A stretch of 64,000 nt of DNA from an uncultured Bacteroidales bacterium (lineage in GTDB: Bacteria; Bacteroidota; Bacteroidia; Bacteroidales; P3), in contig ONCC01000004.1 of assembly GCA_900316235.1 (NCBI GenBank), positions 62,001-126,000 of the forward strand, given 5' to 3'. This document shows positions 58,609 through 63,999 of the stretch, piece after piece (the first letter of the stretch is position 1; every line of letters starts with the position of its first letter). Made by a program: the position numbers and the translations under genes. The notes beneath the pieces are model-generated. The model was not told the DNA's origin, did not search any database, and saw nothing but the letters and a program-made list of their open reading frames with translations.

Positions 58609-59679
58609 ATGAGGAAGAAAGCAGAGTATAAGATTTTTATTAGTTGGTCTGGTGAGCATGGGAAAGCTATCGCTAAAAAACTTAAACAGAGTATAGAAAA
58701 CGATATTTTCTCTGGAAAAGTGAAGTGTTTCGTTTCTGACGTCAATATCACTTGTGGTGAAGATTGGAAAAACAAAATCAATAATGTTCTGAAAGGATCT
58801 CAGTTTGGTATCGTGTGCGTCACAAAAGACACTGTGGGATCCCCTTGGATTCACTACGAGGCTGGTGCCTTGGCAGGAAACGACATTTTGACCATACCAT
58901 TGCTTTTCAATTGTAGTGAAAAGGCGATACAAGGGACTCCGTTGCAAGACAAGCAATGTGTACATTTTCATGATAAAGACCAACCCGGCGACAAATCATG
59001 GACACGCAATGGTGTACAGTTCCATGATAGGGTAAAGTTTTGCAAAATGATCTCCGACATCAATGATGAATTAAAACTGGTCGACATTGATAAAACGCAA
59101 CTGGATATAATCTCGAAAAGGGCCTATGCAAAACTTCAGAGAGATTTTAAAAAGGTCTTTGGTAAATTAAAAGGGGAAGGATTCTATAATACCGAATATA
59201 TCTACCCTAAGGAAATTAGTACCATTAGAAGAAATACTGTTTTTGTCAGCGCACCAATGAGCACATTGTTATCTGATCAATATCAGGTGCAACGCAAGGA
59301 ATTAAAAGAAGTAGTCGGGGCATTATCCGCAATCGGTTTCTCGGAAGTGACCTGTCCTGCTGCTGAAATCGAGGACAAATCACATTTTGAAGGGAAAGAT
59401 GTTGCTGTGCAGAATAACTTTAGAAAACTCAAACAAGTTGATAGTTTTGTCCTAATCGTTGACAAACCACGCCCATCAAGTTCTCTCGTGGAATTGGGTT
59501 ATGCTATTGCTTTGTGCAAAAGAACCGTCATCTTTTACAAAAAAGACCTTCCCTATTTAATCAAGAATGCTGGTGACAATATTCCGCACGTACGTGTTCG
59601 GCAATATTCAACATTCGCTGACCTTAAGAAAGAAATACTTGCCAACAAAATGCTTCTTTTTAATGAGGATAATGACTAA
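58609..59679 (+). CDS. TIR-domain protein with C-terminal nucleoside deoxyribosyltransferase-like domain
   Basis: 356 residues. Residues 6-125 are a TIR domain: KIFISWSGEHGKA, BB-loop CFVSDVNITCGEDW and SPWIHYEAGAL with the catalytic-type Glu E84. Residues 209-350 have the Rossmann-like fold of nucleoside deoxyribosyltransferases: NTVFVSAPMS at the start and SSLVELGYA with a conserved Glu (E295). TIR domains in phage defence cleave NAD+ or make cyclic ADP-ribose signals. A homologue of the C-terminal domain is encoded by the next gene, overlapping by 8 bases. AT-rich, following a strong terminator. Confidence 0.85.
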   Translation: MRKKAEYKIFISWSGEHGKAIAKKLKQSIENDIFSGKVKCFVSDVNITCGEDWKNKINNVLKGSQFGIVCVTKDTVGSPWIHYEAGALAGNDILTIPLLFNCSEKAIQGTPLQDKQCVHFHDKDQPGDKSWTRNGVQFHDRVKFCKMISDINDELKLVDIDKTQLDIISKRAYAKLQRDFKKVFGKLKGEGFYNTEYIYPKEISTIRRNTVFVSAPMSTLLSDQYQVQRKELKEVVGALSAIGFSEVTCPAAEIEDKSHFEGKDVAVQNNFRKLKQVDSFVLIVDKPRPSSSLVELGYAIALCKRTVIFYKKDLPYLIKNAGDNIPHVRVRQYSTFADLKKEILANKMLLFNEDND

Positions 59680-60109
59680 AACAATTTTTGTTTCAACGCC
59701 AATTACTGGGTTCGGCAACATGCAAGACTTTTTGTCTTTTAAGGAATGTGCAGTGTCTGTTATTGATTTGCTTAAAAGTCAGGGGTATATTGTTTATAAC
59801 GAATTTGAACACATTGAAAGTGAAAATTGTTTTGATAGCCCAAGCAAATCAGTTGATGAAGACTTTATGAAAATCGAAAAGTCAGATGTTTTTATTTTGA
59901 TTCATCCTCGAAGAATGCAAACGAGTTCGTTGATTGAATTGGGCTATGCCTGTGCCTTGCAAAAGAGGATAATCATCATAGGTAACTTTAATGACCTCCC
60001 TTTTTTGGCAAAAGGATTAAGAGATTCTCGCTTTAATGCCCTCATACTAGATCATGACAGCAACATTTGTGAAACACTGTTCGGCGTCTTGCCTTTGATT
60101 GATAAATAA
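59672..60109 (+). CDS. Stand-alone nucleoside deoxyribosyltransferase-like protein
   Basis: 145 residues. KTIFVSTPITG (3-13) and TSSLIELGYACAL with E89 match the C-terminal domain of the preceding TIR protein (NTVFVSAPMS; SSSLVELGYAIAL), and DLPFLAKGL matches DLPYLIKNA. Members of the fold transfer or bind (deoxy)ribose-containing nucleosides. The start at 59672 (overlap with the TIR stop) is preferred over ATG 59663. Predicted partner of the TIR protein. Confidence 0.8.
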   Translation: MTKTIFVSTPITGFGNMQDFLSFKECAVSVIDLLKSQGYIVYNEFEHIESENCFDSPSKSVDEDFMKIEKSDVFILIHPRRMQTSSLIELGYACALQKRIIIIGNFNDLPFLAKGLRDSRFNALILDHDSNICETLFGVLPLIDK

Positions 60110-60708: not shown

Positions 60709-61026
60709 TTATACAGCAATACCCGTCCGCATCACATCGTCATATAACGGCGACGGGTGCTCTGGTGACATCAATACCGGCTCAATCAAGAGACTGACCT
60801 TATCGACATCATGCCACAACGATTTAGAGAGTTCCAACCAGTTGTCTCCAATAGTTGGGACAATGACGGCGACATCTATATCGCTGTCTCTGTTTGCACC
60901 TCCTTTTGAGTAGGAACCGAACATCAGCACTTTAGGCTCCTGCGAGAAATGTCGTGCAATGATATGTTTGTACTGTCGCACAAGCTCTATTGCTTCGTTG
61001 CGGCTGAGAGCTTCTCCTTTATCCAT
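60709..61026 (-). CDS. MNT-type nucleotidyltransferase antitoxin
   Basis: 105 residues. Minimal nucleotidyltransferase: GSYSKGG (37-43) and SDIDVAV with D49 and D51. In HEPN/MNT toxin-antitoxin pairs the MNT protein neutralises the HEPN RNase by adding AMP units to it. The start at 61026 (MDKGEALS) is favoured; it overlaps the HEPN gene by 40 bases, a typical order (HEPN first). Confidence 0.85.
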   Translation of the reverse strand: MDKGEALSRNEAIELVRQYKHIIARHFSQEPKVLMFGSYSKGGANRDSDIDVAVIVPTIGDNWLELSKSLWHDVDKVSLLIEPVLMSPEHPSPLYDDVMRTGIAV

Positions 61027-61397
61027 ATCTGCATTGTTTTGGTTTTTTCTATAATATATTGACAAGCATCCTTATCAAGTTTGCGGGCAAGTGCATCCTT
61101 TGTTTCGGGGTAGCGAGCCTCAATGTTGTATGTGACAACCGTATTGAGGAAGTCTTTTTGCTCATCGCTCATCGAGGCATATAAACCGCTGCCATCGGCA
61201 AGACGCTTGTGGCTATGTATGTAAGGAGGTTCCTCCTCCATGGTGGCGCACCAATAAGCTTTCAACATCTTCTCAATGACTTGGTGGCACATGAAAGCCA
61301 CATAGAGCCATCTTCCCGTGGAATACATTGCTTCTGCCGTTTCAAGGTCATATTCGGCCACGCTCACCCAATATTCTATCCGTTCTTCCTTGTCCAT
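60987..61397 (-). CDS. HEPN domain toxin
   Basis: 136 residues, all helical. The domain shows YDLETAEAMYSTGRW, CHQVIEKMLKAYW and EARYPE (R95), typical of HEPN proteins associated with MNT. HEPN toxins are RNases. Works with the overlapping MNT gene. In anti-phage islands these pairs act as abortive infection modules. Confidence 0.85.
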   Translation of the reverse strand: MDKEERIEYWVSVAEYDLETAEAMYSTGRWLYVAFMCHQVIEKMLKAYWCATMEEEPPYIHSHKRLADGSGLYASMSDEQKDFLNTVVTYNIEARYPETKDALARKLDKDACQYIIEKTKTMQIWIKEKLSAATKQ

Positions 61398-61509: not shown

Positions 61510-62487
61510 ATGAACATTTTGCATATCATTGGAAACGGATTTGATAAGGCAATGGGAATGAAGACCAGTTACCCCGAGTTCTATGAATACATAAAGTCAT
61601 TGCCGGAAAAGGGTAGTCCCTTGCTTGAGTTGATGAAAAAAGAGATTGGCGCAAACAAGAAATACTGGTCGGATATGGAGGCGGCTCTGGGGAAATTCAC
61701 GTCGCATACAAGAAACGAGCAGGAGTTTATTGACTTTTATTTTGAGCTTAGTGATAAGTTACGGGAATATCTTTCATCTGAAATATCGAAGTTTTCACCA
61801 GTAGATGCCACTAAAAACAAGATTCGTAATGACATTGTATTTCCAAGCCGTTATTTAGGTCAAACGGACAGAACCACCTTCGCAAAATTTTCCAACACAC
61901 TTCCTAAAACAATAACTGCTCACGTAATGAGCTTGAATTATACTAATACACTTGAAAAAACTTTGATGTATGATAATAACGGGACGCTATCCTTGGGTAA
62001 TACTAACTCACTACAACCCATTGTGCATGTGCATGGCTTACTTGATGATTCTATAATAATTGGCGTTGATAATGAATCGCAAATTGCAAACGAGGCCTTC
62101 CAGAAAAATGATGATGTGAAAGATATCTTGGTGAAGATTCAATCGAACCAAGCAATGAAATTTAATCGGCATACTGAGTGTGAACGGTTGATTACAAGTG
62201 CCGATCTTATTGTCCTTTTTGGTGTATCCATGGGCGAAACTGATACTAGATGGTGGAAACTTATTGGAGAGCAGATGTTAAAGAAGAAGACATTGCGTCT
62301 CATTCATTTCTTGTACTCGCCAAACGCAATAACCCCAACAAGGCGGCAGTTGACGGGTGCTGTGGAACGAAGGCAACGGTCTGATTTGAAAAAGAAACTA
62401 AACATAAGTGAGAAAGAATGGTCCGAAGAGCTGGACAATAGAATTTTTATTTCCGTCAACTCCAAAATGTTCAAGCCTGAAGAGTAA
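61510..62487 (+). CDS. AbiH family abortive-infection protein
   Basis: 325 residues. The N-terminus NILHIIGNGFDKAMGMKTSY is the AbiH signature, followed by SLNYTNTLE, VHVHG (H173, H175) and LIVLFGVSMGETDTRWW near the C-terminus. The fold is likely SIR2-like and NAD-binding. AbiH aborts phage infection in Lactococcus by an unresolved mechanism; the motifs suggest nucleotide use. Single gene, divergent from the HEPN/MNT pair. Confidence 0.88.
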   Translation: MNILHIIGNGFDKAMGMKTSYPEFYEYIKSLPEKGSPLLELMKKEIGANKKYWSDMEAALGKFTSHTRNEQEFIDFYFELSDKLREYLSSEISKFSPVDATKNKIRNDIVFPSRYLGQTDRTTFAKFSNTLPKTITAHVMSLNYTNTLEKTLMYDNNGTLSLGNTNSLQPIVHVHGLLDDSIIIGVDNESQIANEAFQKNDDVKDILVKIQSNQAMKFNRHTECERLITSADLIVLFGVSMGETDTRWWKLIGEQMLKKKTLRLIHFLYSPNAITPTRRQLTGAVERRQRSDLKKKLNISEKEWSEELDNRIFISVNSKMFKPEE

Positions 62488-62528: not shown

Positions 62529-62559
62529 TTTGTCAATTTCATTTTTATATGTATTTTTG
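62529..62559 (+). promoter_or_regulatory. Consensus promoter of the Ntn-hydrolase-like gene
   Basis: TTTG (62529-62532) and TATTTTTG (62552-62559) with a 19-bp spacer, an exact match to the Bacteroidota promoter, separating this pair from abiH. Confidence 0.85.
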
Positions 62560-62580: not shown

Positions 62581-63798
62581 ATGACGGCGATAATTGGTGT
62601 AATGAACAAGCATGCAGTTGCTATTGCGGCTGATAGTGCAGTAACACTTGGTGGGGGCAGAAAGGTATTAAATAGTGCAAATAAACTATTCACTCTGTCC
62701 AAACACCATCCGGTAGCTGTCGCCATATATGGAAATGCCGAACTTGTAGGTACTCCGTGGGAGATAATCATCAAGGAATATAGGAAAAATTTGAAGGAAA
62801 AATCATTCCCTAAAGTGAATGATTATGTTAATGACTTTTTAGAGTTTCTTAAACAAAAACAATACTATTGTCAAGACACCAACGATGCGTTAAATCACAT
62901 AAAGCAATTCTTACTAGGATTTTGTAAGGATTTGTGTCAAAATTTTGGTAACAATCCATCACAATTAACACAAGTTTTTATAAGTTTTTGTAATAATATT
63001 CATCCGAATTATTTAGATGGTTTTTCTGACGATACAGTAGATTTCTTACACAAGAATTTATCTCACGAGTTGGATACTTGTATACAGGGACTAAAAAAAT
63101 CTGGACTAACCATCGATTATGATAAAGCAAAACAAATGCTAGTGAATTCCCTCACCAACGGGATTCCGTTATTTGTTTCTTCCGGTTTGGTTTTTACAGG
63201 TTATGGGGAAGATGAGATATATCCATCTGTTTTTTCTTGTGAAGTGGGATTCGTTATAAATGGTGTATTATCAATTATCCGAAAAAATCCCGTTCAAATA
63301 AGCAATGCAAATAATGCGTCCATCTGTCCTTTTGCACAAACTGATGTGATGCATACTATACTAAGTGGCATTTCTCCGCAAGTTCAGTCTATATATGCTG
63401 AAAGTCTCGCAAAAACAATACAATCGTTTACTAATCAGCTCGCAAATACAATAAATACCAATAATTCTCAACTTGCGCAACAAATACGTGGAATATCTGT
63501 TGAACCTTTTATTCAAACCTTTATTAACCTAAGCCAACAAGCACAGGCAAATCATTATACAGCACCTTTCGTCAATTCTGTTGCGAGTTTGGAGAAAGAA
63601 GATTTGTCTGATTTTGCAGAAAGTTTGATTACACTTACTTCATTGAAACGAAAGGTAAGTCCCGACCAAGAAACCGTAGGTGGTCCTGTTGATGTAATGG
63701 TCATCTCAAAAGGAGATGGAATTATATGGATGAAGAGAAAACACTATTTTGATGCAGAGAAAAACCATCATTTCTTTAGTAATTATTTTGAAAACTAA
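62581..63798 (+). CDS. Proteasome-like Ntn hydrolase, unknown system
   Basis: 405 residues. The N-terminus MTAIIGVMNKHAVAIAADS matches the start of proteasome beta/HslV chains once the initiator Met is removed: Thr as nucleophile (T1), Asp in AADS at position 17 and a Lys at position 34 (position 33 in HslV). Then comes a strand GNAELVG, a long central helical insertion (about 90-330) and a C-terminal VGGPVDVMVIS...GIIWMKRK recalling the last proteasome strands. It is about twice the size of HslV. No unfoldase gene is adjacent within the window. It probably acts as a peptidase or amidase; target unknown. Confidence 0.7.
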   Translation: MTAIIGVMNKHAVAIAADSAVTLGGGRKVLNSANKLFTLSKHHPVAVAIYGNAELVGTPWEIIIKEYRKNLKEKSFPKVNDYVNDFLEFLKQKQYYCQDTNDALNHIKQFLLGFCKDLCQNFGNNPSQLTQVFISFCNNIHPNYLDGFSDDTVDFLHKNLSHELDTCIQGLKKSGLTIDYDKAKQMLVNSLTNGIPLFVSSGLVFTGYGEDEIYPSVFSCEVGFVINGVLSIIRKNPVQISNANNASICPFAQTDVMHTILSGISPQVQSIYAESLAKTIQSFTNQLANTINTNNSQLAQQIRGISVEPFIQTFINLSQQAQANHYTAPFVNSVASLEKEDLSDFAESLITLTSLKRKVSPDQETVGGPVDVMVISKGDGIIWMKRKHYFDAEKNHHFFSNYFEN

Positions 63799-63804
63799 TA
63801 TCTC

Positions 63805-63999
63805 ATGGTAACATATTGCATTTCACAATTAGAGGTAGACTCTCCAATACAAGAAATACCCGTTATGGAGTTATCTTCTCGTGAGAAAGAAGCTGCCGAA
63901 AAAATACATATGGCGACTTCCGAAGATGAAGTTGTTGAAATAATCTCCGATGAACTCGTCCGTTCTTTAATGGAACAAATATCAATAGAGACTCATTAA
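63805..63999 (+). CDS. Small acidic partner of the Ntn-hydrolase-like protein
   Basis: 64 residues, complete, starting 6 bases after the preceding stop. Acidic, with a predicted helical C-terminal half (SSREKEAAEKIHMATSEDEVVEI). No family recognised. The spacing suggests co-expression with, and a role as a partner or inhibitor of, the larger protein. It lacks the C-terminal Gly-Gly-Gln/Glu of Pup. Confidence 0.65.
   Translation: MVTYCISQLEVDSPIQEIPVMELSSREKEAAEKIHMATSEDEVVEIISDELVRSLMEQISIETH

Follow-up and report, generated by a model that had tools for sequence, protein, structure and literature searches.

The locus considered in this study raises the question of what a bacterium gains from a proteasome-like hydrolase that is followed directly by a very small gene, has no ATPase partner gene at its side, and sits among genes of phage defence. 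The window (the whole stretch of 64,000 nt that was analysed) lies on contig 39 of a source genome of 2.43 Mb in 56 contigs, which its relatives place in the Bacteroidota. I will refer to the hydrolase as gene 1, to the small gene as gene 2, and to the two together as the module. The answer developed here is that the module is a real, under-described two-gene unit from a known but uncharacterised enzyme family, and that the evidence connecting it with defence is good but circumstantial. The features discussed are collected in Table 1.

Table 1 Features of the module and of its upstream neighbours in the window, in order of position.
Feature	Position	Strand	Basis
TIR + nucleoside deoxyribosyltransferase-like protein, then a second such protein	58609..60109	+	Pfam, PADLOC
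Minimal nucleotidyltransferase/HEPN pair (context)	60709..61397	-	HEPN E 2.7e-19; NTP_transf_2 E 1.2e-7
AbiH-family abortive infection protein (upstream neighbour)	61510..62487	+	Pfam AbiH E 8.2e-41; PADLOC AbiH 1.3e-6
Bacteroidetes-type promoter match, TTTG-N19-TAnnTTTG, exact	62529..62559	+	22 nt upstream of the gene 1 ATG
Gene 1, proteasome-like Ntn hydrolase (PMI-4 type), 405 aa	62581..63798	+	ORF, family alignment, AlphaFold model, structure comparison
Thr2 codon (mature Thr1, expected nucleophile)	62584..62586	+	Thr 139/142, Ser 3/142 relatives
Asp18 codon (equivalent of proteasome Asp17)	62632..62634	+	Invariant
Lys35 codon (equivalent of proteasome Lys33)	62683..62685	+	Invariant
First helical insertion, residues about 93-199, after the first helix pair (H1/H2)	62857..63177	+	Model secondary structure
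Second helical insertion, residues about 264-336, between H3 and H4	63370..63588	+	Model secondary structure
Gene 2, 64-aa partner, C-terminal amphipathic helix (xxEVVEIISDELVRSLMEQI)	63805..63999	+	ORF, linkage, selection, co-inheritance

The original prediction had the reading frames right: 405 and 64 amino acids, 6 bases apart, with Thr1, Asp17 and Lys34 in the translated gene 1 protein once Met is removed. It had also made conservation of these residues a check on the idea of a proteasome-type active site. Of 142 distinct full-length members of the family, 139 have Thr at position 2 and three have Ser, and none lacks Asp18 or Lys35. Equally invariant in the family alignment (142/142 each) are Ser19, Lys28, Gly207, Gly209, Gly263, Asp371, Asp379-Gly380, Trp383, Lys387, Tyr389, Phe390 and Asn395. 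A Thr or Ser immediately follows the start codon at every locus except L023, where the reading starts four residues earlier than that position. The segment from 383 to 395 (W-x-K-R-K-H-Y-F-x4-N), downstream of the core strands, is conserved as strictly as the active site. I know of no counterpart to it in proteasome subunits, and it is a candidate binding site for the partner or a substrate.

Searches with the single sequence of gene 1 reach the proteasome family only below threshold. The Pfam Proteasome model matches residues 2-48 of gene 1 with 14.9 bits, below its curated cut-off of 22.4, and the membership of gene 1 among proteasome-like proteins is therefore based on structure and active site and not on that model. 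A search of gene 1 by phmmer against PDB sequences gave no meaningful match, NCBIfam gave sub-threshold noise only, and the HslV models reached 12 bits where their cut-off is 137, with no full-length match. A match over the whole length is to phrog_5990 (E 1.5e-101), whose annotated function is unknown and which represents the phage branch of the same family. When a profile built from 117 family members was searched against PDB sequences, archaeal proteasome beta subunits came out on top (E 0.005), and the alignment of that profile sets the N-terminal Thr on Thr1, Lys35 on Lys33, and ETVGGPVDVAVISKGDG on SASGGMIDVAVITRKDG. The alignment to the Thermoplasma beta subunit pairs K35 with K33 and puts D18 at position 17. 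HslV has the N-terminal TTxxG...AxDxxxT motif in common with gene 1 but differs in requiring HslU, and the similarity of its profile to that of the family is limited to the N-terminal strand pair (E 0.0012, probability 20%, 24 columns).

The predicted structure is more informative. The AlphaFold model of gene 1, for which 117 sequences served as input, has a pLDDT of 92.4 and a pTM of 0.88, and it shows the strand and helix order of a beta subunit plus two helical insertions (helices within 100-192 and 266-334). Foldseek found 18 PDB chains at E ≤ 1e-3, every one from a 20S proteasome. By VIA-align the best match is Anbu (5nyw; Z 16.9, rmsd 3.1 over 194 residues) and many 20S beta subunits stand at Z of about 16.5, which is to be read as a tie, since rows less than 1 Z apart count as such. 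The register of these alignments places residue 2 of the model on residue 1 of the Anbu and beta chains. In a viral structure library the best matches are two phage proteins, one of them named proteasome beta-like. The fold of the proteasome/HslV type that had been predicted, Ntn alpha-beta-beta-alpha, is thus seen in the model and by both methods of comparison. That fold in the model and the conservation of Thr2, Asp18 and Lys35 in the alignment are the opposite of the two outcomes that would have refuted the original prediction, and gene 1 encodes an Ntn hydrolase whose catalytic residues are all in place. The "large unique insertion" of the original prediction consists of two helical insertions, both of them features of the family.

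Relative to the 20S beta subunit, gene 1 has a similar fold (Z 16-17), equivalents of Thr1/Asp17/Lys33, and the C-terminal strand motif GG-x-[IV]DVAV-[IL][ST]-x-x-DG; unlike it, gene 1 has no propeptide, alpha subunit or unfoldase, contains two large helical insertions, and is double the length. Anbu, the closest structural match, is also without a known unfoldase. It differs in having no helical insertions, in being chromosomal, and in its extended last helix, and it shows no directly detectable sequence similarity to gene 1.

In a survey by sequence analysis, Fuchs, Alva and Lupas (2021) added 22 families to the known relatives of the proteasome, all without function (PMC8665760). One of these, PMI-4 (Proteasome homolog with Multiple Insertions 4; representative HDY66466.1), comprises 501 sequences at 90% identity, is widely distributed in bacteria and includes phage members, and has its insertions after H1/H2 and between H3/H4 (PMC8665760). 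Both insertion sites are present in the gene 1 model, the relatives of gene 1 are spread in the same way over many bacterial phyla and phages, and the proteasome-like core and catalytic Thr/Asp/Lys are common to both. From this match to the published description (insertion sites, family size, and distribution including phages), I infer that the family of gene 1 is PMI-4. The 2021 survey reported no genomic context or co-occurrence suggestive of function, and no partner, for PMI-4 (PMC8665760), and the small partner gene and the cargo and defence settings described below are new here. The literature searched, which included papers citing the 2021 survey, contains no functional study, defence role or partner for the family.

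The partner was sought across the family as any open reading frame of 40-95 codons starting no more than 60 nt from the stop of gene 1. Such an ORF lies directly 3' of gene 1 at all but four of the 151 loci (147; 96% when counted over 82 groups formed at 60% identity), as compared to 492 of 1693 control genes taken from elsewhere in these loci (29%, or 28% by group). Comparison of gene 2 with its two counterparts at L016 and L017 gives dN of 0.07-0.10 and dS of 0.7-1.8 (dN/dS about 0.07-0.09), and gene 2 is under purifying selection. Over 123 pairs, the similarities of gene 1 and of gene 2 are correlated with a Mantel r of 0.82, the maximum in 1000 permutations being 0.057, so that the two constitute a co-inherited module. 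Where gene 1 falls below about 35% identity, the partners resemble one another no more than shuffled sequences do, and for this reason the common origin of distant partners is argued from their position and gradual change.

Gene 2 had been described as a small acidic partner. A dedicated partner it is, but acidity is not a trait of the family, whose median length is 61 residues and median pI 9.6; gene 2 of the window, with a pI of 4.2, is an acidic extreme, and only 24 of 118 partners have a pI below 6. Large branches of partners share the C-terminal amphipathic helix as well as a short motif of aromatic residues and proline, for example EEYxKxFFPK, and one phage branch corresponds to phrog_26281, of unknown function. 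No charge complementarity was found between partners and the insertions of gene 1. Against the core of gene 1 there is a weak correlation of charge (-0.23), a single uncorrected value among multiple tests.

Since the two genes share a reading frame, both could be modelled as a single read-through chain, the stop codon of gene 1 being taken as Gly. In this model (pTM 0.82) the first half of the partner is disordered, and its helices at 433-444 and 448-471 have pLDDT values of about 85-87. By my estimate, a pTM of about 0.78 would be expected if the partner helices were not placed, and the value hints that they may be docked on the gene 1 protein. At L118 (8001-9395), gene 1 extends about 20 residues into partner-like sequence, which continues in another frame, and no ORF follows. 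I considered this as a fusion that would prove contact and rejected it, since it is probably a frameshift in a metagenomic contig.

The single consensus promoter that had been proposed for the two genes did not survive in its sigma-70 form, for matches to the E. coli type occur at chance level (6 found, 6.6 expected), and the candidate before the module was rejected. The exact match listed in Table 1 is to TTTG-N19-TAnnTTTG, which I take to be the consensus of Bacteroidetes-type promoters; there are three such matches in 64 kb, where 0.4 are expected. This promoter probably serves both gene 1 and gene 2.

HslV and proteasomes depend on an ATPase partner, and the lack of one next to the module, noted from the outset, extends to the family: when neighbours were clustered, no gene for an AAA+ unfoldase recurred beside the relatives of gene 1. 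Within the module's own genome, Pfam (PF00227) recognises no HslV or proteasome, and no HslU scores above cut-off. The best HslU matches are far below it, as would be expected of other Clp-type ATPases.

Relatives of gene 1 occur in many phyla, in no fewer than 515 species genomes out of 84,980. They are found in genomes of Bacteroidota, on plasmids, in phages and phage satellites, and on 166 viral contigs of IMG/VR. Close to home the family is rare, being carried by 3 of 59 genomes in the same genus (the two other copies at 31-45% identity) and by 5 of 295 in the same class, and its distribution is sporadic and horizontally scattered. Streptococcus satellites and a prophage have the gene at the end of the element. 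An E. coli prophage has it immediately after the gene for an HTH repressor, the slot that rex occupies in lambda, and the same position after an HTH repressor gene recurs in 11 viral contigs from 4 groups. The likeness to lysogenic conversion genes of the lambda RexAB type is one of gene position only, the proteins being unrelated. In phages of E. coli and Stenotrophomonas the gene is antisense to adjacent lysis or late genes. Opposition to the strand of phage genes is frequent in raw counts (20 of 70 versus 72 of 902) but shrinks to 14% versus 8% by group at 60% identity, and I have dropped it as a main argument for that reason. In phages and prophages the module behaves like cargo.

The setting of the window itself is rich in defence genes, as the original prediction had it. 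Upstream, in order, are the TIR-deoxyribosyltransferase protein, the second protein of that kind, the nucleotidyltransferase/HEPN pair and AbiH, and then comes the module. About 5-12 kb past the module are a phosphoesterase of endonuclease-effector-like type, an AlbA protein and, matching the candidate system PDC-S49 (E 1.3e-163), a KAP-like NTPase. The PADLOC 2.0.0 models match neither gene 1 nor gene 2. The first of the upstream genes (58609-59679) encodes a TIR domain fused to a nucleoside 2-deoxyribosyltransferase-like domain, and the second deoxyribosyltransferase-like gene overlaps it; the region matches TIR_2 (E 1.7e-13), Nuc_deoxyrib_tr (E 3.7e-6 and 6.3e-5) and PADLOC TIR-TM (1.4e-24), and the two genes look like a candidate NAD-linked defence pair. 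Past the window on contig 39 (L187, 3393-7336), a set of three genes is perhaps another defence unit. One product resembles an ATP-binding kinase-like domain, one is like phosphoribosyltransferases, and one is a calcineurin-like phosphoesterase similar to PDC-S60/endonuclease-effector.

A survey of neighbourhoods had been proposed as a check on the defence reading, and the outcome is mixed. Around the relatives of gene 1, 117 and 146 proteins match 187 and 298 PADLOC models, respectively (E ≤ 1e-5); redundancy among the models makes their counts overstate the numbers of proteins. Among the matches are BrxC, at the best E value of 1e-245, PDC-S04 (1e-149) and PDC-S01, as well as restriction systems of types I and IIG, SoFic, and PtuA of Septu. 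A control of 143 proteins from 20 arbitrary places, drawn only from five Bacteroidota genomes, matches 20 models, at best with E 1e-29. Defence models are thus enriched, but the association is not universal: many copies stand singly among housekeeping genes, such as hemB in flavobacteria, DNA polymerase I (polA) and citrate synthase. All-against-all clustering of neighbours revealed no constant third gene, the commonest neighbours being phage repressor-like HTH proteins, integrases and type I restriction subunits. Several marine flavobacteria (L045, L046, L048 and L038) have the module at one shared place adjoining hemB, which suggests a stable insertion hot spot.

The reading that I prefer, and to which I would give about an even chance, is that the module is a mobile pair, a Thr hydrolase with its dedicated partner, that protects the host or the carrying element against phage. 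The steps that this would require are less certain as one proceeds from an active amide-bond hydrolase, through binding by the partner and the restraint or aiming of the enzyme, to a phage trigger and protection of the carrier. A Met aminopeptidase would expose the Thr (sometimes Ser) nucleophile of gene 1, which would need no propeptide, and the equivalents of Asp17 and Lys33 would flank it; the nucleophile of HslV is likewise exposed by removal of Met. The partner, presumably produced from the transcript of gene 1, would most likely bind the gene 1 protein through its C-terminal helix and, once bound, most likely hold the hydrolase inactive or direct its choice of substrate. Because the module brings no unfoldase gene, the enzyme, set off by infection, would probably cut a specific exposed target, or otherwise act at an amide bond of it, and not attack unfolded chains. 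The pair would most likely shield the host cell, or a resident prophage, satellite or plasmid, from other phages. The larger claim, that these modules form a widespread new class of anti-phage immunity in which an ATPase-free proteasome-like Thr hydrolase with a variable partner of 50-70 residues cleaves a specific phage or host protein upon infection, I put forward tentatively, at somewhat below even chances.

Two other readings assign gene 2 a different part. It may be a dedicated substrate, trimmed or ligated to yield an active or signalling species, and its shortness, fast evolution and tight linkage would suit that role. Connectase, a relative of proteasomes, shows that the fold can serve as a specific ligase (PMC8665760). 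I consider this unlikely, as no conserved cleavage-like motif was found across the partners, nor does a transporter or receptor gene recur beside the pair. Alternatively, the hydrolase might be a toxin and gene 2 its antitoxin, maintaining mobile elements rather than defending cells. A pair of genes whose second product is small, found on plasmids, satellites and prophages, is what such an addiction module would look like, but gene 2 has no recognisable DNA-binding domain among the families searched, and the many chromosomal copies amid housekeeping genes speak against it as well; it seems to me distinctly unlikely. The distinction from the defence reading is in any case not sharp, many modules of the toxin-antitoxin type also being defensive.

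The enzyme might instead work for the phage, acting on proteins of the host or a helper phage in counter-defence, host takeover or interference with the helper. Copies inside the structural and lysis regions of phages and at the ends of satellites are consistent with this, but the wide presence of the family in defence-rich regions of chromosomes, the window included, and its many non-phage loci make it very unlikely. Least probable, to the point of being hard to credit, is a self-standing accessory peptidase that deals with damaged proteins, its assembly factor being gene 2. The copies alone amid housekeeping genes would fit such a role in quality control, and uncapped proteasomes do degrade unfolded proteins (PMC8665760), but the distribution is sporadic and horizontally scattered, and the family is spread by phages and plasmids.

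What matters beyond the window is that one of the largest among the 22 function-less families gains a partner gene that constantly accompanies it, together with a clear mobile and defence setting, which makes its function testable. Should the defence reading be true, it would mean proteasome-type catalysis in bacterial immunity without an unfoldase, and it would bear on the origin of proteasomes from simpler, self-contained hydrolases. Should the broader anti-phage class be real, it would be, within the literature searched, the first defence role for such an enzyme of the proteasome family.

One group of relatives lies near an operon of a different sort. On four rhizobial plasmids (L176, 8128-11437; L178, 5267-10443; L179, 10001-15187; L180, 10001-15174) the proteasome-like gene has an operon for ubiquitin-like conjugation close by: no more than a few kb away are genes for a multiubiquitin-domain protein and for an E1 of the ThiF type. 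A ClpP-like subunit is also encoded on three of the four, and there are two different arrangements overall.
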